Of a stretch of 37,404 nucleotides of DNA, positions 8,374 through 35,383 are shown one piece after another (within the stretch, counting starts at the first letter, position 1; each line of letters opens with the position of its first letter). This DNA is from Desulfurococcales archaeon. Its GTDB lineage: Archaea > Thermoproteota > Thermoprotei_A > Sulfolobales > Desulfurococcaceae. The notes below the pieces were generated by a model that searched no databases, had not been told where the DNA came from, and was given only the letters and a program-made list of their open reading frames with translations. Location: contig JALWZC010000065.1 in assembly GCA_027002875.1 (NCBI GenBank), positions 22,965-60,368 on the forward strand, given 5' to 3'. Both the position numbers and the translations under genes were made by a program.

Positions 8374-9768
8374 TTGTATGATCCGGATAAGATCCTGCAT
8401 TATGCGGAGAATATTGGAGTAGACTATATAGATGTCCGGATTAACAGGAAGATCTATGAGAACATCCTGCTCGATAACGGCGTTGTCAGAGAGTATAGTC
8501 TTAATGAAGTCATGGGTCTAGGCGTTCGCGTACTAGTTGATGGCTATATGGGTTTTGCAGCGACTAATAAGCCTGACTCGGAGTCTTATAAGGAAGTCGT
8601 GGATAACGCTGTCAAGGCAGCTAGAGCCCTAAGGACTTCGGGTAGGAAGACACGGCTCTACCCGCGCCGTACTAGTAAGGATCGAGTTGTATCAAGATAT
8701 GTTAAAGACCCCTTAGACGTTGATAGTGAGTCTAAGATCAGATTGCTCAGGGAGATCTATGGGTCTACTAGGAGTGTTGAAGGCATTGTTAGTTCTACGG
8801 TGAGATACGGCTTCGAGCTTGACGAGAGGCTCTTTGTTTCCAGCTGGGGTGATCGCGTCGAGACCACTACGAGGCTAATAGGTATAGGGGTGCTGGAAGT
8901 CGGTAAATCGGGTAATGTAATGGAGAGGATTTGGGATTCCGAATCCCGCGTCGCAGGGTGGGAGTTTATCGAGGGCATGGATTGGAATAACTTCGCGAAG
9001 GAGGTAGCCCAGCTAGCCGTTGAAGCCTCAAAGGCACCGGTTGTTAAGCCCGGTAAGTATACCGCGATACTGGACAACGAGATCGTTGGCCTCCTCCTAC
9101 ACGAAGCCTTCGGCCATGCAACCGAGGGCGACGAGGTAGAGTCCGGAACCAGTATCTTGAAGGATCGGATTGGTGAGAAGGTTGCTAGCGAACACGTAAC
9201 GATCGTTGATGACGGGAGCATTGAGGGAGGCTTCTACCTAGCCTACGATGATGAGGGTACTAGGAAGGTTAGGGTTGCAACGGTTGAAAAAGGTGTTTTA
9301 AAGACTTACCTGCACAGTTTATCGACCGCTGTAGAGCTGGGCGGTAAGCCTACCGGTAATGCTAGGGCTGAAAACTTCGCTAAGCCGATACTTGTAAGGC
9401 AGACGAATACCTATATGGAGCCGGGTGATTGGAGCGTCGAGGAATTATTCAATGATACTGGCTCCGGGATATATATTCGGGGCCGGGGTGCTATGGGTGG
9501 ACAAGTTGATCCATCAGTAGGGACCTTTACCTTCACGGCAGGGCCGAGCTATATCATTGAGAACGGTGAGCCGGTAAGGCTTGTACGTGGAGTAATGATG
9601 TCTGGAATGATCCTTGAAACGCTTAAGAACGTTGATGCAGTAGCTAAAGACCTAGTTGTTAAGACGAGTGTTTTCGGCGGCTGCGGTAAGGGAGGACAAC
9701 TTGCCCGCGTTGGCGATGGCGGGCCACATATACGTGTTCGTGGATTAACAGTTGGTGGAGGTAGGTAG
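8374..9768 (+). CDS. tldD: TldD-family metalloprotease
   Basis: LLLHEAFGHATEGDEV (HExxxH motif), GNARAENFAKPILVRQTNTYMEPGD; TTG start. Confidence 0.93.
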   Translation: MYDPDKILHYAENIGVDYIDVRINRKIYENILLDNGVVREYSLNEVMGLGVRVLVDGYMGFAATNKPDSESYKEVVDNAVKAARALRTSGRKTRLYPRRTSKDRVVSRYVKDPLDVDSESKIRLLREIYGSTRSVEGIVSSTVRYGFELDERLFVSSWGDRVETTTRLIGIGVLEVGKSGNVMERIWDSESRVAGWEFIEGMDWNNFAKEVAQLAVEASKAPVVKPGKYTAILDNEIVGLLLHEAFGHATEGDEVESGTSILKDRIGEKVASEHVTIVDDGSIEGGFYLAYDDEGTRKVRVATVEKGVLKTYLHSLSTAVELGGKPTGNARAENFAKPILVRQTNTYMEPGDWSVEELFNDTGSGIYIRGRGAMGGQVDPSVGTFTFTAGPSYIIENGEPVRLVRGVMMSGMILETLKNVDAVAKDLVVKTSVFGGCGKGGQLARVGDGGPHIRVRGLTVGGGR

Positions 9769-23574: not shown

Positions 23575-24726
23575 TTACTTCCTCCAGACTATTAATAATA
23601 TGTTGTAGTCAAACATTCCGATCCTCATATAGCTCTTCACCGTTAACACCGAGGTTGAAGGTACAGATTCCTCGCCAAGTATTATTGTTCCCCGGTACAC
23701 TGGGACATACACCCTATTGTTATAGTAGTCGTTTATTCTTAGTAGGAGTGCATTGTATATTGGGTAGTATATCGTGTTCACTGTTGAAACCGGCTGCCCG
23801 TCTGTTTCGTCTATCAATCTACACGTGTAGTATATGTCGTCGTAGCATTCATACCATCTAGTCGATGGAGTATCTACTCTAAGCTCTTTAACCTGGTATT
23901 CGTTATAGTTGCTCCACTGGTTTGATCCCTGGGTGTCTAGTATGTATTGTATGTTTGTCTTGTTAAGATGTACTTCTTTTTCCTGGTAGTAGGGGTATAA
24001 TATTGTTTCGTAGATTATCTCGAAGTATTTATGTGAGTAGTACTGGTATTTCTGTGTTGCAGCGTTGTAGTACGTTATACTAGTGTTTAGCGCGTAGTAT
24101 CCGTATAGGTTCATGGGTGTTAACTGTATCGTTGAATTTATGAATACCGTTAGGCTACCGGTGTTTAGCACGTATCCTTTATATATGTTGTCGCTGAACC
24201 AGTATCCTATATATCTACTAGTCCTCGACTCCAGGATCGCGATTAATGCGTCTACATCATGTATACTATGTGTTAGGCTTGATGATGATATTACATAGTA
24301 GTATTCGCCATTAATCGATTCATCAGGCGATTGCTTATCGATTTGCTGAGTTAGGCCATCATTATAGTATACTAGGAGATGTAATGGATAATTATCTAGT
24401 GTTTCTACGATTATCTTGTTCGTTGTATAGTTTACGGTTATTCTCCTAACGCTTGAATAAATTATTACCCTGTAGCCGTATCCGCTTATTATTTCCTCCC
24501 CGATCTTATCCCTAATTATCGCGTCAAGATCTATTAGTTCCGGCGTTAAGTTCCCATGACTATACTCGTAATTTATCACTTGCTTAACAGTACTCAGTAG
24601 GAAGTCCTGGAACCTTGCAACGGGCATTTGCGGCTTAACAGTGTAGTAGCTTTGTACGACGATGTTGAATAATGGTATGAATGATACTAGTATTATGAAT
24701 GCTAGGATGTACTCAATCACTCTCAC
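23575..24726 (-). CDS. Pilus-locus membrane-anchored protein
   Basis: 383 aa; MRVIEYILAFIILVSFIPLFNIVVQSYY N-terminal helix; overlaps the preceding gene by 4 nt. Confidence 0.75.
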   Translation of the reverse strand: MRVIEYILAFIILVSFIPLFNIVVQSYYTVKPQMPVARFQDFLLSTVKQVINYEYSHGNLTPELIDLDAIIRDKIGEEIISGYGYRVIIYSSVRRITVNYTTNKIIVETLDNYPLHLLVYYNDGLTQQIDKQSPDESINGEYYYVISSSSLTHSIHDVDALIAILESRTSRYIGYWFSDNIYKGYVLNTGSLTVFINSTIQLTPMNLYGYYALNTSITYYNAATQKYQYYSHKYFEIIYETILYPYYQEKEVHLNKTNIQYILDTQGSNQWSNYNEYQVKELRVDTPSTRWYECYDDIYYTCRLIDETDGQPVSTVNTIYYPIYNALLLRINDYYNNRVYVPVYRGTIILGEESVPSTSVLTVKSYMRIGMFDYNILLIVWRK

Positions 24727-27182
24727 GGATACCTCTCACCACCGATCAACGCTACGATTACGTACTGGTTATCCTGAGTAACAACTAGTGCTAAGTCTAC
24801 TAGTAGAGTGCTCGAGAATACTATGTAGTTTCCAGTCGTATACTCTATTACCGGTACCGATGGGGTGGCTAGGTGTTCTATTGCACTATACTGCGGCTCT
24901 ACACTCGGCTCTGGGTATACGAATGGCCGAATCCTAATCCATGAGTAAAACGTATAAGCTGTTTCTTCGTTTTCATTGTTGAGCTTAGCTGCTCCGAAGG
25001 ATGCATAGTATGAGCCTGTTGATGGAAACTCTACTTCTCCACTGGCTATTCTTGAATACGTAGTATTGTATATAACGTAGTATGATTTATCACCGTATAA
25101 GCCTACACCCAGTATTACCGGCGTATCAGGGTATGCTGCTGTAAGTGGTGTTTCTTGTAGTTGTGAAGCGTCTGGGTTGTAGACCGCATCCCAGGTTAGC
25201 CCGTTTGTATCTGAGACTGCGTCTAAACTAGTCATTACCGATATGTCCGGGCTCCAGGGCTCAACGTTGATAGTTAATATGCTCCCACCGGGTATTGGAT
25301 AGTTTACTTTAAAGTAGTATACTAGGTTTCCATAGCGATCCCTCACCTCTATGTAGAGTGGGCCTTTCGTGCCTATTATTGGACTTGTTGTTACATCAAT
25401 GTATGCTATACCATTACTCTGAGCTATCGCGCTATAGTACTCGCCTGTTCCAGAATCGTATATTGTGATATTCCATCCCGGCGATAATCCTTTGACATAG
25501 ATTATTCCCGGATCAAGGTATGTTGTACCAATGAGGTTTCTAAGCTCCCTCCGATCATACCTAGCAGATACTAGGTCTTGGAAATAAGATGATGTTATAT
25601 ATCCGTAATCGGTATATGCATAGTATCCTATATAGTCGGGCTCAAACCTACCAACCTGTGTTCCGCGGAGGGTTTTCGACAATAACTTGTTCCCGTATTC
25701 ATCGTATACCTCGATCCTCCACCGAGCGTTTGATCTTCCGGGAGTCTTAGCTGTTACCTTAATGTATAGCCAGCCCTCATAGCCTATGCCTTGATAGTCC
25801 CGATTTCTCTTCAATACTTGTGATGATAGATCAGGGAAATACGTTTTCACAAGATATATCCTCCCATACGTATCCTCGTATACTCCGAAGCCTATAGAGC
25901 TCGTCGAGTAACTATCGATGTATGGGTTGTCCGCAAACACGATCCCCCTGATCACATCGTCCGGTTTAACATAAACTTTCACGATTACACTGATGCCTTC
26001 GCGGCCGGGGCGTGAATCATATTGGGCGTTCTGCCTCATTATTGCGGCAGCATTATAATAGTTATATGGAGGCCATCCAACCACTAGATCCGTATTGTTC
26101 CCCCTGAGAACGGTTGTCGAGGAATTACCGTTTCCTATTGTAGCGATGTCCCAGTCGCCCCATACTACTGTATAATCGGATAGGCTAGTGTTCTGATCGT
26201 ATTCTTGATATAATCCTGGTTCTAGGAGGTACGTGAATCCTGCCCCGCTACTGGTTGAATTGTACCATGAAAGCCTTACTACGTGTGTATTTATAGGTAT
26301 AGGTGTAAGGGGGGCTGTTAACGCTTCAGCGATCCATCCATGCTCGCCGGGGGTTATGTTGTATGTTTTAGTAGTATATATGTTTAGGTATGCGTTGTTG
26401 TAACGGCTTTGGAGATCAATTATTAGTTCTAATCCATTATATTCTACGTCATCATATGTCAATGTGTATGGGCTACTACTATAAGTTGCATGTAAATCGT
26501 ATAGGTGCCAGTTTCCATTGTTTAATAATTGATCTATTGAAGTATACTGTGAAAGGTCTTCGTATAATGGAAATATTGCTGTTGTTCCCTCATATGATGC
26601 CTCGGGCTGTCCCCAGTATGCATAAATAATCTTTGATGAATTAGCTGTTAAACTAGGTATTTTTACCCAGGCAATTGCTACCCCTCTGTTGTTATCCCAG
26701 TATTCTATCCAGTAGTCTAGCCTTGTCCGTCCATCGCTGTCCGTGAATCTTAGGTCGTTTAGGGTCGGCTTGTATATTGTTCCTTGATAATTACAATACA
26801 TATTGTTTATATCTAGGATTATCCTTACCGGGTAGTTTTCGAGGCTAGACCCCGATCTCTCGGTTACCGTGATAGGCATTCTACAAGTCCATTCAAGCCC
26901 GTTTTCAACGTATCCCTGTCCCGGAAGGAACCCTGTTAAACCCGTTTCTTGTATTAAACGACCTTTACCTATTAATGCCCTCGGTGAACCATCGCTTTTC
27001 GGGGGTAGGGCGAGGGCGTAGCTGTAAATGTTTCTTCCAGGTATCGAGGCTACGACGTATATTGCATAGGGACTGTAGTCTGGATCTTTCCGTATATCGG
27101 GGAATTTTCCAGCTAGCTGCGCCCCATACCCAATATATATGTTATAATATGTACGACTAGCTATTTCCACGGGGTTATTCAT
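24723..27182 (-). CDS. Large extracellular protein with DUF2341-like domain (candidate tip or surface adhesin); N-terminal anchor is separated by an in-frame TGA
   Basis: 819-aa ORF; CRMPITVTERSGSSLENYPVRIILDIN...LRFTDSDGRTRLDYWIEYWDNNRGVAIAWVKIPSLTANSSKIIYAYWGQPEA is DUF2341-like. No signal peptide or TM at its own start. Confidence 0.85.
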   Translation of the reverse strand: MNNPVEIASRTYYNIYIGYGAQLAGKFPDIRKDPDYSPYAIYVVASIPGRNIYSYALALPPKSDGSPRALIGKGRLIQETGLTGFLPGQGYVENGLEWTCRMPITVTERSGSSLENYPVRIILDINNMYCNYQGTIYKPTLNDLRFTDSDGRTRLDYWIEYWDNNRGVAIAWVKIPSLTANSSKIIYAYWGQPEASYEGTTAIFPLYEDLSQYTSIDQLLNNGNWHLYDLHATYSSSPYTLTYDDVEYNGLELIIDLQSRYNNAYLNIYTTKTYNITPGEHGWIAEALTAPLTPIPINTHVVRLSWYNSTSSGAGFTYLLEPGLYQEYDQNTSLSDYTVVWGDWDIATIGNGNSSTTVLRGNNTDLVVGWPPYNYYNAAAIMRQNAQYDSRPGREGISVIVKVYVKPDDVIRGIVFADNPYIDSYSTSSIGFGVYEDTYGRIYLVKTYFPDLSSQVLKRNRDYQGIGYEGWLYIKVTAKTPGRSNARWRIEVYDEYGNKLLSKTLRGTQVGRFEPDYIGYYAYTDYGYITSSYFQDLVSARYDRRELRNLIGTTYLDPGIIYVKGLSPGWNITIYDSGTGEYYSAIAQSNGIAYIDVTTSPIIGTKGPLYIEVRDRYGNLVYYFKVNYPIPGGSILTINVEPWSPDISVMTSLDAVSDTNGLTWDAVYNPDASQLQETPLTAAYPDTPVILGVGLYGDKSYYVIYNTTYSRIASGEVEFPSTGSYYASFGAAKLNNENEETAYTFYSWIRIRPFVYPEPSVEPQYSAIEHLATPSVPVIEYTTGNYIVFSSTLLVDLALVVTQDNQYVIVALIGGERYP

Positions 27183-27215
27183 TTTATAAATTGTACCGTT
27201 AAATCCGCTATAGTA

Positions 27216-27383
27216 TCATGATCTAATGGTTAAAGCGTAGTCTTCGGCAATAGTTTTCAAAATGTGTTTAAAGTTGCTATTTGTCATTATTGACACATTT
27301 ATATATGTATAACTAATAATGCCGGTTAAAACGATTATTAAGGCAACTGTTCCTATTATATGGGTAATTGTTACCGAGACCAT
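27216..27383 (-). CDS. Short N-terminal TM fragment in frame with the DUF2341-like ORF, ended by TGA
   Basis: Manual translation: MVSVTITHIIGTVALIIVLTGIISYTYINVSIMTNSNFKHILKTIAEDYALTIRS* (TGA = revcomp of 27216-27218), then in the same frame YYSGFNGTIYK-MNNPVEIASRTYYNIYIGYG...; ATG lies just after the upstream gene's TAA. Confidence 0.8.
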   Translation of the reverse strand: MVSVTITHIIGTVALIIVLTGIISYTYINVSIMTNSNFKHILKTIAEDYALTIRS

Positions 27384-27384
27384 T

Positions 27385-28167
27385 TTAGGTCATCTCCACC
27401 CCTAAGTTATATACTATTACGTCCAAGTATATTGGTAACTCTAATCCTAGATCCTTATAGTTGATTTCTGTAATGTTGCCGTTCTGGTTAAACCTTATGT
27501 CAAGACTCATAACGTTATCGTAGCTGACTAATAGCGGTGTTGACCGGAAGTAGTAGCGCAGAGTATGTATTTTCCCGTATCCCTTGAAGGATGCTATCGG
27601 CGTTATATTTATGAAGAAAACCCGTACGTAGTAAACAGTAGTGTTATCCCGTAAAATCCTCGTCTTGTATAGTAGGATGCGGCACGTATCTAGTCTTATA
27701 TATGTTGATCCTTCCTGGTAGTATTCTACAACTCTCGGCATTAGACGTGTATCGTTGACTATTAGTGCATTGATGCCGTATACTATTCTCTTCGAGGTAA
27801 TTATCGCGGTATCGATCTTGCTATAGATAGCGGTACATGGTAGTTCGTATTCAATAGTATTATTAACCACGATCGTAATAGAGCCGTACTTCATCCATCC
27901 AATACCCATGCGTATACCCGGGTAGGAGATAGTATATGTTCCACCACTCAACGGATTAACTATTTCGGGGATATTCTGAGCTGATGACTGGAACAACTGT
28001 CTAACGTAGAAATACTCTGTGGAAGAAACCCCGCTGGTAGCACTATGTAATACGTAAACAGACATAAATAATGCTAGGGCTACTAGTATTGAGTATATTA
28101 TTATTGTAGAAATAGCCTCCGATAGAGCCCTCAAAACTATCACTCTAATAGTTTTAGTATAGCTCAT
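27385..28167 (-). CDS. Pilin-like membrane-anchored protein
   Basis: 260 aa; RALSEAISTIIIYSILVALALFMSVYVL N-terminal helix; beta-rich head. Confidence 0.75.
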   Translation of the reverse strand: MSYTKTIRVIVLRALSEAISTIIIYSILVALALFMSVYVLHSATSGVSSTEYFYVRQLFQSSAQNIPEIVNPLSGGTYTISYPGIRMGIGWMKYGSITIVVNNTIEYELPCTAIYSKIDTAIITSKRIVYGINALIVNDTRLMPRVVEYYQEGSTYIRLDTCRILLYKTRILRDNTTVYYVRVFFINITPIASFKGYGKIHTLRYYFRSTPLLVSYDNVMSLDIRFNQNGNITEINYKDLGLELPIYLDVIVYNLGVEMT

Positions 28168-28193: not shown

Positions 28194-28964
28194 CTAATAT
28201 AGTTCGAAGTGGATATCGTAGACTAGTACTTCAAGCCTAAAACTACTTATACCTGCTGGATCTACTCCTACGCTTCTAAGCAGGTCGTCCGATGAAGCTA
28301 TGAATTCACCGTTTCTATATATGCGGAAATATGTTGTGTTTTCTATTGTTGTAGTGATTGTTGTGTTTATCTTAGAGTATACTCTGAGTATGTATTGTCC
28401 ATGTATTACTGGTTTAACTATTCTTACAAGTGCGAGTCTTATTACTAGTGAGCTAGTATTTACCGTGTTTATCCGAAATATATTATAATATATTTTGTTC
28501 ATGGATAATTCGATTACTGAGCCTATGTTTGTATTGTATTCTACGATGAATGGTACTTGATCAGTCCTATTAACTATTAATTGTTCCTCGTCTCCATATA
28601 TAACGTTCCTGCCCTTCAATATCACGTTGCTTGAGCGGCCGTATATCGTGTAGAAGGAGTCAATTGATATGTTTTGATGGATACCTCCGTATTGTGTTAT
28701 TGATATTGTTATAACCGTGTTTAACCTCTTGTAGCCGATTCCTATACTCTTATAGTTTAAGTGGTAGGTTACGACTGCGCCGCGGAGTATGTCGTCTAGT
28801 TTTGCTGTAGCGATGTCTTTGAGCATCGATTTTACCTGTCCATATTCTAGCACTGTTCTTGTAGTAGTTGTTGTATACATTGTTGTATAGAATAAAGCTG
28901 CTGAAACTGCTAATACTACGGCTACCAATATTATCAGCGATATTGATTCACTTATTCCCCTCAT
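28194..28964 (-). CDS. Pilin-like membrane-anchored protein
   Basis: 256 aa; MRGISESISLIILVAVVLAVSAALFYTTM prepilin-like N-terminus. Confidence 0.78.
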   Translation of the reverse strand: MRGISESISLIILVAVVLAVSAALFYTTMYTTTTTRTVLEYGQVKSMLKDIATAKLDDILRGAVVTYHLNYKSIGIGYKRLNTVITISITQYGGIHQNISIDSFYTIYGRSSNVILKGRNVIYGDEEQLIVNRTDQVPFIVEYNTNIGSVIELSMNKIYYNIFRINTVNTSSLVIRLALVRIVKPVIHGQYILRVYSKINTTITTTIENTTYFRIYRNGEFIASSDDLLRSVGVDPAGISSFRLEVLVYDIHFELY

Positions 28965-28994: not shown

Positions 28995-30779
28995 TTAAGC
29001 TGGTTGTGTTAGTGTTCCAAGTACTCCCTGGAATAGTGGTGATGCATAGAATAATAGTAGTGTTATAAGTGTTAGTATTACTGCGTGTTTAAAGCCCATA
29101 GCGATCGAGCCTGATGAAACCTTTCCAGCTACGAGACCCATGAGGTAGGTGTTTAGGACTATTGCGGGCATAACTGTAGCCGCCGCCTGATAATATGATC
29201 CTCCGGCTCCCAGCTGGATTGAACCCATGAAGGCCGCCATCATGATCACTGTTGCAGCTGCTAGTATTGAGCCCATGTAGGGTACTATGAGTAGCGTCCT
29301 TAGATTCCTCTTTTTCTCCTCTTCTATTGCTTCAACGCTTTCAGCGAACCATGATAGATGCTCCATTATCTCTATGCTTCCACCGCCTACTTCGATAGTG
29401 TCTGTCATTATGAATAACAGTACCTTTGCCCTCCAAATAATTATTTTCTTAAATAGATCATCCATGATCCTCGATAATGGTACTCCTAGGCTTAAGTGTA
29501 AAGCCATGCGTTTAAGATATTTTGTGAATACCCCGTAGCTTCTACGGGATAATTCTATGATGCTCCTCTCGGGTGAGAGGCCTGTTTTCCTAACCTCTAC
29601 TAGGTCTCTGAGGAACCTCGTAATCCCATTTATTACCTTGTACTCCCTCCCAAGGTATTCAGCATAGATCATTGATGGTAGTGTTGCTATGATCAATGCT
29701 GTCGATAAGGCTATTGATGATAAGAAGTAGCTTGGAATATTCAAGTCCTTCGCGGGACCAACTAAGAAATTGTATAGTCCGGATACTAGGAAGCTGTTTC
29801 TCAACTGGTTTCCGGGTGGTAGTACTGCTGGTAATAGGATGCCGAATACTGTTAAGTAGGCTGTCAATGGAATTGTTACTCCGCCGAACATTATATATGG
29901 GCGGTAATCTATCCATGGCTCTTTGTACTGCATTACATCGGTTAGATATATTATCATGCCCGAGATCATCGGTAGCAGGATATACATCATTAGAAACATG
30001 GATGCCGGCGAGATTCCGAAGGATAGGGTTCCAGCATAGGATATTGTTACAAAGTACATTACCGACATACTGATGAGTGTAAGCAATACGAGTGCTAGGT
30101 AGGCTTCCAGTAGTCCGGATAGTCTGTCCGATATTATCTTCATCTTAACAAGGATCTCCGAGAAGAGTAGGCGGGCTTTCTTAACGAGGTAGTCTACAAC
30201 GTCTCCACCGGCTCTAACAGTTGTAACGTATCCCATTAATAGGTCTCTAACGGTTGCACTAGGCGTTCTCTGTGCTAGTATTGAGAAAGCCGATAATGGG
30301 TCTCTTCCCAGAACCCTTACCAGTAGTATGAATCTCTGGCTAAGCTCAGCACTTTTAGTGAATACTCTACGGCTCCTAGTAATCCTCTCAAAGGCTACAT
30401 AGGGTGACAGCCCACTCATAACCATCATGCTTAGATAAGCAACCGTGTATGGGAATTCACCCTCAATCCCTCCGGCCCGGCTACTGCCGATTAACGCTGG
30501 TAGGTATACTAGGAACAGGAAGCCTAGGAAGGGGAATAGTACTAGTATAGGGATCGCCAGGTAGAATCCCAGCAGGGCAGAAACAATGCTTAACAGTATT
30601 GTTAAGAGAAACAATAGGAGGGTTGCAAATGCTATAAATGAAGCATAGACTTCGGGGTAAAGGTGTATACCGCTTTTACGTATTTCATCCGAGATCTGAG
30701 GGTATAATTCGAGTATTTTACGTCCGGGGCGTTCAAAATACCTATAAACCCAGTCCCAGAAACTCAACCCACTGAACAC
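28995..30779 (-). CDS. Archaeal TadC/FlaJ-like pilus assembly membrane protein (tandem T2SF domains)
   Basis: 594 aa with two T2SF-like halves (LSMMVMSGLSPYVAFERI...FRDLLMGYVTTVRAGGD and LVEVRKTGLSPERSIIEL...VGGGSIEIMEHLSWFAE) and many TM segments. Confidence 0.88.
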   Translation of the reverse strand: MFSGLSFWDWVYRYFERPGRKILELYPQISDEIRKSGIHLYPEVYASFIAFATLLLFLLTILLSIVSALLGFYLAIPILVLFPFLGFLFLVYLPALIGSSRAGGIEGEFPYTVAYLSMMVMSGLSPYVAFERITRSRRVFTKSAELSQRFILLVRVLGRDPLSAFSILAQRTPSATVRDLLMGYVTTVRAGGDVVDYLVKKARLLFSEILVKMKIISDRLSGLLEAYLALVLLTLISMSVMYFVTISYAGTLSFGISPASMFLMMYILLPMISGMIIYLTDVMQYKEPWIDYRPYIMFGGVTIPLTAYLTVFGILLPAVLPPGNQLRNSFLVSGLYNFLVGPAKDLNIPSYFLSSIALSTALIIATLPSMIYAEYLGREYKVINGITRFLRDLVEVRKTGLSPERSIIELSRRSYGVFTKYLKRMALHLSLGVPLSRIMDDLFKKIIIWRAKVLLFIMTDTIEVGGGSIEIMEHLSWFAESVEAIEEEKKRNLRTLLIVPYMGSILAAATVIMMAAFMGSIQLGAGGSYYQAAATVMPAIVLNTYLMGLVAGKVSSGSIAMGFKHAVILTLITLLLFYASPLFQGVLGTLTQPA

Positions 30780-30973: not shown

Positions 30974-33900
30974 TTGGAATCCCTTAAGAAGATATTTCGG
31001 CTTTCCCGAGGTGCTCGGAGGCCTAAGCCGGCTGTTATTTCTAAGCGGGAAGAGCTTCGCGAAGAAATTGTTAAATCTATTGTTGCACCAGCTGGGCCTG
31101 TTCAGATTGCTGAGCGTGATCCCAGCTGGAGGATTATTGAAAGCTACTATATCTATAAGCCTTTCGTTAAAATCGTTATTGCTGAAACGGATACTGGGCC
31201 CCGCTATTTCGTTGAGGAGTATGGTTTAACTCCCGCGGACAACGAGGTTTTGAAGAAGCTTACACAGATCCTTATAGATGAGATCAAGCCTCCTACGAGG
31301 CCTGAGGATATAAAGGATCTTAAAGGCTACGTGTTCAGGGAAGCCGAGCGTATAGCTGAGAAGTATAAGAACAAGCTGGGCTTAATTGGTAGTAGGAGGA
31401 TTAAGCTACTCTACTATATTGAACGGAACCTTCTAGGTTACGGACCTATTGATCCATTACTTAAGGACCCCAATATTGAGGATATTTCTTGTAATGGTAT
31501 TGGTATACCCATATATGTTTGGCACAAGAAGTACGAGAGTATACCGACGAATATAACTTTCGTAGAGGAAGACTATCTTAACGAGTTTATTATGAAAATG
31601 GCGCATATGGCTGGTAAGCATATTAGTATAGCTTTCCCAATACTCGACGCAATGCTTCCAGAGAAACATAGGCTAGCTGCAACCTTCGGCCGGGAAGTAT
31701 CTGTTAAGGGGCCTAGTTTTACCATTCGTAAGTTCCGCGAGAGGCCCTTCAGTGTAACCGAGATCATAAAGTCGGGCGAGATCAATAGCCTAGTAGCCGC
31801 TTATATATGGACGCTCATCGAGCATGGTAAGACCGCGATGATTGCTGGAGGTACCGGTACTGGTAAGAGTTTTCCGGGAGACACACTGATCCCTATATTA
31901 GTTAATGGTAGACCTGCTATAACGCGTGCAAAGGATCTATACAGTCTTGTTAATAGCCGGGAGTACCGTGTCGGAGAGCACTATGTTAAAGATGTTGACG
32001 GCGATATACGGATCCTGAGCGTCGGGAGAGACTATAGGATCGGTTGGCGCCGGGTTAGGAAAGTTATTAGGCACCGCGATAATAGGCCCTTAGTTAGGGT
32101 TGTAACAGATTCCTCCATAATCACTACAACGATAGATCACAACTTTATAAAGATCGATCCGGAAACGATGGAGCTAATACCGGTAAGAGCTGGAGAGCTA
32201 CGCGAAGGGGATTGGATAGTTAATTCCTGGCTAGACCTAGAGTATATGGGTGGAGAACTATCACTAGATGAAGCAGTCTTTCTGGGAATATGGATTGGCG
32301 CTGGATACTTAATGGAGGATGGCGTTATTGGTTTAAAGCATCGTAGCAAACCTCTAGTTGAAAAGTATAGATTCCTAGTACGGAAACTCTATAGTACAGA
32401 TCCACGGGTAAAGCTGGAGGGCAGGTATTATAGGGTAGAATTCACCAATTATAAGTTATTCAATGAACTACGGGAACTTGTGGAAAACAAGGATTCAATC
32501 CCAGTCATCATTAACAGAATAATCTTCGCCAAGGATAAATCCTACATAATAGGTTTCATGGCCGGCTTAACAGAGACTAGTAGTAGTATAATTATCGACA
32601 ACCATAATGGCGAGATCAAGGCACAGATTATATATAGTTTTGAGTCGAAGCACTTGTTAAACCTTGTCAGTTACTTATTAAAGAGGCTTAGGATTAAGCA
32701 TAGGGTAAGTGTAGAGGGAGAAGTGTATAAGGTTGCTGTTAAGGAACCCTATATGCTTAAACTTTTAGAATACATGATGGAATACTTCACGACTAGTGAA
32801 ATGAGGGAATTCGTCAGTAAGATAAAGGACATGATCAGTAGGTTTAGTGGTAGGGAAGATAAGGATAGTGAGGCTTCTCAGCTATATAGAGAAAAGGATG
32901 GTATTGGTCTATCCATGCTTGCTAAGTTAGCTGATACCGATATCCTGCTTGAGGAGGTTAAGAGCATCGAGTATGTTGATCCATCGAATGATTTCCTCTA
33001 CGATTTAGAGGTTGAGGATACCCATAACTTTGTGATCGGGCAGATCGGTTGGAGGCTGAACCATAACACGACTCTGTTAAACGTTGTATCAATGTTTATA
33101 AGGCCCGGAATGAAGATCGTAACGATCGAGGATACGCCGGAGATAAATCTACCACATCCTAACTGGGTACAATTAACGAGTCGTGAAAGCTACCTCGTTG
33201 GATCACAGGCTGCTGGAACTAATATTAGACTATTCGACCTCGTAAAACTCAGCTTAAGATACCGTCCCGACTACATAATCGTCGGAGAGATTCGTGGAGA
33301 AGAAGCATTCGTATTATTCCAAGCTATGGCCAGCGTCTCCCATGACACACCGGTCCTCTTAAAGGATGATGCTGGCCATATATCCCTTGTAAAGATCGGA
33401 GAGTTTATCGATAAGTTTTACAATGTTGGAGAGGAGAGGATCGCTAAACCTGTTGAAGGATACTATGTGTTAAGCCATAACGGCTACAATGCTGTATGGA
33501 AACCTGTAAAGTACGTATTGAGGCACAGCACTGATGAGATATATGAGATAGAATACGAGGGTGGGGGTAGACTCGAAGCAACTGGAAGCCATAGCGTCTT
33601 CGTATTAGACCCTGATACCCTTGATATCGTTGAAAAACCCGTCTCGCTGCTGGGAAGTGGAGACTACCTAGTATCGTTTAATGGTGTAGAAAGAGATGAA
33701 GACTATCAGGAGATCAATGTAGTGAAGCTAGTTATGGATTATGACGATGTCTACGTTGACAATATCCCTGAGGAAATCAAGAAGTATACTAATGGTAAGA
33801 ACCCAATACCGCTACAAAAGTACACTGTATTGAAGAGTAAGGCTATGGTAGATGACAGTGATTTAAGGATAAAACTGCTGCGGAGTAAATACTCATTACC

Positions 33901-35383
33901 CCCCATGCTCGTCCTAGACGAGGATCTAGCCTACGTGTTTGGAGCCTATACTGCTTATGGATGTGTGAAAGAGTATAAGGAGAAGCGTATATGTTTCGCA
34001 TTCAGTAAAGGAGAGGAAGAGATTGCAAGTAGAGTACTCGATATAATAGAGAGGAAGTTTAATATAAAGCCTACTATAAATGATCGCGGAACCCATGTTA
34101 TATACGAGTTCAACCATACCCTACTAGCCACCGTCTTCGAGAAACTACTGGGGAGGAAGCCGGGTGAAAAGAAGATCCCGGAGATTCTCTGGAGATCACC
34201 AGTAAATGTCGTTAGGTCGTTTTTTGAAGGGTTAAAAGCTGATCAGCGAAGAACTCATCGGGGAAGCTATGCTTCATATAGTACTGCTAACAAGGACCTT
34301 GCATATCAGCTGTTATGGCTGGCTAGATATAAGGGATTATACTCGGAACTTGTAGTAAAGCATGCGGGTAAGGATAGAGGCGGAACTTACTATAATGTTC
34401 TCGTATACCTTGATGAAAATCTTAGAAAAATCAATGCTTCTGAAAGAATTCCCGTTAAACCATTGATTAGGCTAATCAAACTATCTAAGCCTAGATCCAT
34501 CCCTTACGAATTAACCCGTATTAGAGAAAGAGAATTCATATCCCGGAGAACAGCGAGGGAAGTCTTAGAATGGATCAAGAAGAACGGGACATTCACAGAT
34601 ACAAGTAGAAGCTATATGAAGAAGATAAAAGAGCTTATCGAAAGTAATCTAACCATACATAAGGTTAAGAATATCAGGAAAAAAACTTATCACGGATACG
34701 TCTACGACATCTCAGTACCAGAAACAGAATCATTCTACGGCGGAAACATTCCAATCCTACTCCACAACACCGGCCACGGCGGATTATCCACCCTGCACGC
34801 TGAAACGCTTGATTATGCTATTAAGAGGTTGACTAGTCCGCCGATGAATATTAGTCCGCCGTATATTAAGTTGATGAATATCTTTATTCACTTGAAGCGT
34901 GTAATTACGCGTATTGAGAAGGGTGTTATTCGTGTCGAGCGCCGCGTTACTACTGTGCAGGAGGTTGCTGATTATGGTAAGTATATCGAGATCGCACACT
35001 GGGATCCCAAGACTGATCAGTTCAAGGTTCGCTTCGAGGATAGTATTCATTTAAGAGATATAGCTGATAAACGTGGGCTCGATCTCGAGGATATCATAGA
35101 CGAGATTTATCGTAAAGCCACTGTGTTGAATTGGATGATTCTGAAGAATATATTCAACGTATGGGATGTATCGAGGATAATATTCGACTACTACTACGAT
35201 CCCGCTACCGTTTATAAGAGAGCTGTCGAAGAACTAGAAGAAGCCGGGCGGGAAGCTGCGATACCAGCAATAACTACTACACGGGAGGAAATTGGGGAGA
35301 CGGAAGAGCTTGTAACCGGTACTAAGGAGATGGGTGAGGCTACAAAAGAATTATTCGAGCGGACGCGGGAGCTTGGAAAGTAG
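30974..35383 (+). CDS. Type II/IV secretion-family (TadA/GspE-like) pilus ATPase precursor interrupted by two inteins
   Basis: Extein: LGYGPIDPLLKDPNIEDISCNG, GGTGTGK-[intein]-TTLLNVVSMFIRPGMKIVTIEDTPEINLPHPNWVQL, RPDYIIVGEIRGEEAFVLFQAMA-[intein]-TGHGGLSTLHAE. TTG start. 1469 aa precursor, 590 aa after removal of the two inteins. Confidence 0.93.
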   Translation: MESLKKIFRLSRGARRPKPAVISKREELREEIVKSIVAPAGPVQIAERDPSWRIIESYYIYKPFVKIVIAETDTGPRYFVEEYGLTPADNEVLKKLTQILIDEIKPPTRPEDIKDLKGYVFREAERIAEKYKNKLGLIGSRRIKLLYYIERNLLGYGPIDPLLKDPNIEDISCNGIGIPIYVWHKKYESIPTNITFVEEDYLNEFIMKMAHMAGKHISIAFPILDAMLPEKHRLAATFGREVSVKGPSFTIRKFRERPFSVTEIIKSGEINSLVAAYIWTLIEHGKTAMIAGGTGTGKSFPGDTLIPILVNGRPAITRAKDLYSLVNSREYRVGEHYVKDVDGDIRILSVGRDYRIGWRRVRKVIRHRDNRPLVRVVTDSSIITTTIDHNFIKIDPETMELIPVRAGELREGDWIVNSWLDLEYMGGELSLDEAVFLGIWIGAGYLMEDGVIGLKHRSKPLVEKYRFLVRKLYSTDPRVKLEGRYYRVEFTNYKLFNELRELVENKDSIPVIINRIIFAKDKSYIIGFMAGLTETSSSIIIDNHNGEIKAQIIYSFESKHLLNLVSYLLKRLRIKHRVSVEGEVYKVAVKEPYMLKLLEYMMEYFTTSEMREFVSKIKDMISRFSGREDKDSEASQLYREKDGIGLSMLAKLADTDILLEEVKSIEYVDPSNDFLYDLEVEDTHNFVIGQIGWRLNHNTTLLNVVSMFIRPGMKIVTIEDTPEINLPHPNWVQLTSRESYLVGSQAAGTNIRLFDLVKLSLRYRPDYIIVGEIRGEEAFVLFQAMASVSHDTPVLLKDDAGHISLVKIGEFIDKFYNVGEERIAKPVEGYYVLSHNGYNAVWKPVKYVLRHSTDEIYEIEYEGGGRLEATGSHSVFVLDPDTLDIVEKPVSLLGSGDYLVSFNGVERDEDYQEINVVKLVMDYDDVYVDNIPEEIKKYTNGKNPIPLQKYTVLKSKAMVDDSDLRIKLLRSKYSLPPMLVLDEDLAYVFGAYTAYGCVKEYKEKRICFAFSKGEEEIASRVLDIIERKFNIKPTINDRGTHVIYEFNHTLLATVFEKLLGRKPGEKKIPEILWRSPVNVVRSFFEGLKADQRRTHRGSYASYSTANKDLAYQLLWLARYKGLYSELVVKHAGKDRGGTYYNVLVYLDENLRKINASERIPVKPLIRLIKLSKPRSIPYELTRIREREFISRRTAREVLEWIKKNGTFTDTSRSYMKKIKELIESNLTIHKVKNIRKKTYHGYVYDISVPETESFYGGNIPILLHNTGHGGLSTLHAETLDYAIKRLTSPPMNISPPYIKLMNIFIHLKRVITRIEKGVIRVERRVTTVQEVADYGKYIEIAHWDPKTDQFKVRFEDSIHLRDIADKRGLDLEDIIDEIYRKATVLNWMILKNIFNVWDVSRIIFDYYYDPATVYKRAVEELEEAGREAAIPAITTTREEIGETEELVTGTKEMGEATKELFERTRELGK
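31868..33067 (+). mobile_element. Intein 1 (400 aa), inserted in the Walker A motif, with degenerate LAGLIDADG domain
   Basis: Starts S1 (SFPGDTLIPILVNG, block A), block B TTTIDHNFI, block F FLYDLEVEDTHNFV, ends RLNHN followed by T+1; removal restores GGTGTGKTTLLN. LAGLIDADG-like motifs FLGIWIGAGYL and FMAGLTETSS. Confidence 0.92.
33332..34768 (+). mobile_element. Intein 2 (479 aa), inserted before the GHGGLSTLHA motif, with degenerate LAGLIDADG domain
   Basis: Starts S1 (SVSHDTPVLL), block B ATGSHSVFVLD, block F YHGYVYDISVPETESFYGG, ends ILLHN followed by T+1; removal restores FQAMATGHGGLSTLHAE. LAGLIDADG-like motifs VFGAYTAYGCV and FFEGLKADQR. Confidence 0.92.

Follow-up and report, generated by a model that had tools for sequence, protein, structure and literature searches.

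The window analysed here is a stretch of 37,404 nucleotides (37 kb) from the draft assembly of a Desulfurococcales archaeon, and it contains a run of minus-strand genes next to a secretion ATPase gene (Table 1). The T2SSE-type ATPase and the T2SSF/TadC platform protein, both recognised by Pfam, are linked here, and the linkage is kept in relatives. The gene order TadC-256-260-DUF2341-383-130-422 is kept in several genera of the family. Six proteins of the locus carry N-terminal hydrophobic segments, and the best N-terminal 19-residue hydropathy means of the five neighbours of the DUF2341 gene were 2.6–3.2. No Pfam pilin family matched the N-terminal domain of the DUF2341 protein (hereafter the N-domain) or the operon neighbours, and an obvious charged leader was not seen on the N-domain. 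An AlphaFold model made from three sequences only had a mean pLDDT of 34.8, which was too poor for a reading of the fold. Judged from the sequence, the genes constitute a conserved type-IV-pilus-like locus. DUF2341 proteins have been placed in methanococcal-type loci (Makarova, Koonin and Albers 2016, PMC4858521), and for those in archaeal type IV pilus loci a role as tip adhesin was proposed, on the analogy of PilY (PMC4858521). The present locus resembles the loci described there in having a secretion ATPase, a TadC-like platform, several small proteins with hydrophobic N-termini and a large DUF2341 protein. It differs from them in that theirs are of the methanococcal type, whereas the one in the window comes from a relative of Desulfurococcales and its DUF2341 gene is interrupted.

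Table 1. Positions of the interrupted DUF2341 gene, its parts and the neighbouring genes in the window
Feature	Position	Strand	Basis or remark
Secretion ATPase (T2SSE) with apparent inteins, divergent orientation	30974–35383	+	Pfam
TadC-like platform protein (T2SSF)	28995–30779	-	Pfam
Operon gene, 256 aa, pilin-like N-terminus	28194–28964	-	
260-aa gene upstream in the operon, hydrophobic N-terminal segment	27385–28167	-	
Interrupted DUF2341 gene with pilin-like N-domain	24723–27383	-	886-codon frame, TGA is codon 56; translation and uninterrupted orthologue
Codons 1–55, N-terminal hydrophobic segment and helix	27219–27383	-	20 synonymous / 3 nonsynonymous vs same-genus genome
In-frame TGA, codon 56	27216–27218	-	TTA (Leu) in same-genus genome
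Codons 57–67 (YYSGFNGTIYK), in neither annotated ORF	27183–27215	-	4 synonymous / 0 nonsynonymous vs same-genus genome
Mechanical 819-aa ORF from ATG 27182, DUF2341 present, N-terminal hydrophobic segment absent	24723–27182	-	
383-aa gene downstream in the operon, hydrophobic N-terminal segment; overlaps the DUF2341 gene by 4 bases	23575–24726	-	
130-aa gene downstream in the operon, hydrophobic N-terminal segment	23179–23571	-	
422-aa gene downstream in the operon, hydrophobic N-terminal segment	21914–23182	-	

Translation of the minus strand from ATG 27383 gave MVSVTITHIIGTVALIIVLTGIISYTYINVSIMTNSNFKHILKTIAEDYALTIRS, the stop, and then YYSGFNGTIYKMNNPVEI and onwards. The 55 codons, the TGA, the 11 following codons and the 819-aa ORF are all in one frame, and the count of 886 codons includes the TGA. 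This retranslation reproduced every coordinate of the preliminary description, which had reported a 55-aa frame with a transmembrane segment, its TGA and the in-frame continuation. The DUF2341 domain (PF10102) was matched in the 819-aa protein with 63.7 bits against a gathering cut-off of 23.4. When the first 60 residues were compared, the best 19-residue Kyte-Doolittle mean was 1.02 from ATG 27182 and 2.32 from ATG 27383. A start at 27182 thus lacks an N-terminal hydrophobic segment, as had been anticipated in the claim that it would yield a surface protein without an export signal. ATG 27383 directly follows the end of the upstream ORF at 27385. The same description had taken this ATG as the real start within the operon, and it is supported as the ancestral start.

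The gene was compared with its orthologue in one genome, the only other available from the genus (MAG Desulfurococcales archaeon isolate S143_80, contig WAON01000135.1). The orthologue is uninterrupted and has 886 codons, with 88% identity over all residues, no insertions or deletions and an identical operon order; the two genes differ in that the orthologue has TTA, for leucine, where the window has TGA. Around the stop site it reads ATTAGATCATTATATTAC, and the window reads ATTAGATCATGATACTAT, with one substitution within the codon. The codon of ATG 27182 is also conserved in it. Because this uninterrupted gene can be aligned with the frame over its full length, the frame is more than a chance one, and the alignment indicates that the ancestral unit is a single 886-codon gene starting at ATG 27383. 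The expectation of a continuous protein of about 886 aa is therefore borne out by an existing orthologue. In the stretches of the window that can be aligned to this genome, stops besides the TGA sit upstream of starts or in shadow frames, and no second gene clearly interrupted by an internal stop or a frameshift was seen in these parts.

Matches were found in 23 of 40 genomes of the family. The N-domain was aligned for 12 long homologues that cover the N-terminus and 10 short ones of about 170–180 aa. All 22 sequences, the same-genus orthologue included, are free of stops at and around the site. The residue aligned to the TGA is mostly Leu (10) or Ala (9), with Gly, Ile and Cys once each; Trp, Arg or Sec never occurs there. 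The proposal that a single base change accounts for the stop stands, with TTA against TGA, although the residues given as examples, Trp and Arg, do not. The conserved N-domain extends from residue 1 to about 130 and has the motif YN-x-x-IG. Since the 22 aligned homologues have no stop, the TGA lies inside one conserved N-domain and not at a domain boundary. The alignment of homologues at the stop that the preliminary description had suggested is thereby provided. It had also envisaged homologues that naturally begin at the downstream ATG beside a separate small membrane gene, and this is contradicted by the short relatives, which run through the stop position.

The short N-domain proteins, which occur in other genera of the family, are homologous to residues 1 to about 130 and are without the DUF2341 head. 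In the one case where the operon position was checked (genome G017, L068 5987–6352), the short protein occupies the slot of the DUF2341 protein and the head is absent. This suggests that the DUF2341 head was gained or lost within the family. A fused arrangement is present in the MAG Staphylothermus sp. isolate AUK316 (JAGHDU010000255.1), where the TadC-like gene and genes for 256 aa and 249 aa are followed by a DUF2341 protein with a fused N-domain. This partial orthologue is about 43% identical and cut by the contig end, and the stop is absent at the site.

The dN/dS of the whole frame against the same-genus orthologue was 0.067, as compared with 0.026–0.078 for the five small operon neighbours and 0.035 for the platform protein. 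From these values, at most about 2% (neighbour baseline) or about 8% (lowest baseline) of the divergence could have accumulated without constraint, an estimate that is rough because dS is near saturation. Codons 57–67 have only synonymous differences, and the dN/dS of the frame is similar to that of its neighbours; therefore, translation covered this region until recently, and the stop is a young one. These substitution counts indicate that codons 57–67 were constrained at the protein level after the two lineages split, and they point to a stop that is either young or not real.

The gene is whole in every relative found, so a recent mutation of an ordinary kind or an error in the sequence is most likely, rather than special decoding. 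We assign a probability of roughly 0.9 to a very recent single-base nonsense change, either a real mutation in the sampled population or an error in the draft consensus, in a continuous gene of about 886 residues. None of the tests run here speaks against this reading. Both options had been named in the preliminary description, and both hold, with the same-genus orthologue and the other homologues intact and one base affected. That the organism in fact has a sense codon and an intact gene has a probability somewhat below one half. The assembly is a draft of 1.81 Mb in 132 contigs, and the gene has no decay elsewhere, a single base being affected. On the other hand, comparison with the same-genus genome is clean over the rest of the window, so that the consensus is not generally poor, and a probable TAG-split gene on another contig, described below, suggests that real nonsense mutations may occur here. 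A real nonsense mutation in the sampled population, leaving a null or anchorless protein, comes close to an even chance. It is consistent with one clean substitution among contig genes that are otherwise intact, and surface appendage genes are often dispensable; the restriction of decay to the one base argues against it.

By comparison, a division into two genes, one for a membrane peptide of 55 aa and one for a functional protein of 819 aa from ATG 27182, is very improbable. The ATG is present and its codon is conserved in the same-genus genome, but the 11 intervening codons evolve like protein-coding sequence, and no export segment is encoded from 27182. Moreover, the stop falls inside a conserved domain that in other genera stands alone as a protein of about 175 aa, which has the equivalent operon position and runs through the site. 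Programmed UGA readthrough or recoding that sets the amount of an anchored adhesin, the third option of the preliminary description, is similarly disfavoured. The frame downstream of the stop is intact and under selection, which readthrough would demand, but the same is expected if a nonsense change is young. Against it stand the absence of the stop from all 22 homologues and an RNA 3' of the stop that folds no better than shuffled sequences (z -0.85). No tRNA-Sec match in the genome exceeded the cut-off. Eight places lay below it, seven of which are ordinary Ser, Leu, Lys, Arg, Met or Gly tRNAs according to ARAGORN; for the eighth and weakest, ARAGORN gives no tRNA gene. In addition, a review (PMC8211752) counts only Sec, Pyl and one -1 frameshift as demonstrated archaeal recoding, and no further TGA-split gene was found in about 275 kb of the genome. 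If true, readthrough would be a case of archaeal recoding beyond Sec and Pyl, and the evidence speaks against it. Its specific form, in which the TGA is real, fixed in the species and partly read through to give a small regulated amount of anchored DUF2341 protein, appears even more remote.

Nor does the leucine of the same-genus orthologue suggest Sec or Trp at the stop. For a general reassignment of TGA, coding frames broken by one in-frame stop were scanned in sampled stretches covering about 275 kb of the genome; the split frames were mostly pairs of adjacent, complete genes, and the one other probable split gene has TAG. Nothing pointed to a decoding of TGA in particular as sense, so that this candidate was rejected. 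That gene is a PIN-domain-like (VapC-type) frame on another contig (L058), split by the in-frame TAG near 8987 (+) and, as judged by eye, probably broken.

With the nonsense change or consensus error as the preferred reading, the intact protein most likely serves as a pilin-like component of the type-IV-pilus-like machine. It would consist of an N-terminal hydrophobic helix and a small N-domain, followed by a large DUF2341 head outside the cell. From the homologues we infer that in this machine the N-domain forms a constant pilin-like subunit, with the DUF2341 part as an optional external head. The loss of the anchor noted in the preliminary description is thus upheld, and its likely adhesin with a membrane anchor is more aptly seen as a pilin-like subunit that can have DUF2341 as a head. 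The constant part of the operon slot would then be the N-domain and not the DUF2341 head. If the stop is real, translation would end after 55 residues. A product restarted at ATG 27182 would be without the N-terminal segment on which membrane insertion and assembly depend, and loss of the protein is the probable outcome. On this sequence-based view, a real stop probably leaves the protein non-functional. For annotation, automatic gene calling would give an 819-aa surface protein without an export signal, whereas the true family member is a pilin-like protein of 886 aa.

The secretion ATPase of the locus appears to hold two inteins, and both stretches are absent in relatives. One follows GGTGTGKS in the Walker A motif (about residues 300–698), and the other precedes TGHGGLSTLHAE (about residues 788–1265). 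In the same-genus genome, the ATPase seems to contain an additional intein at TGHGGL/STLHAE, six residues past the second, which is missing in the window (near 34786); in that genome the two parts are on different contigs.
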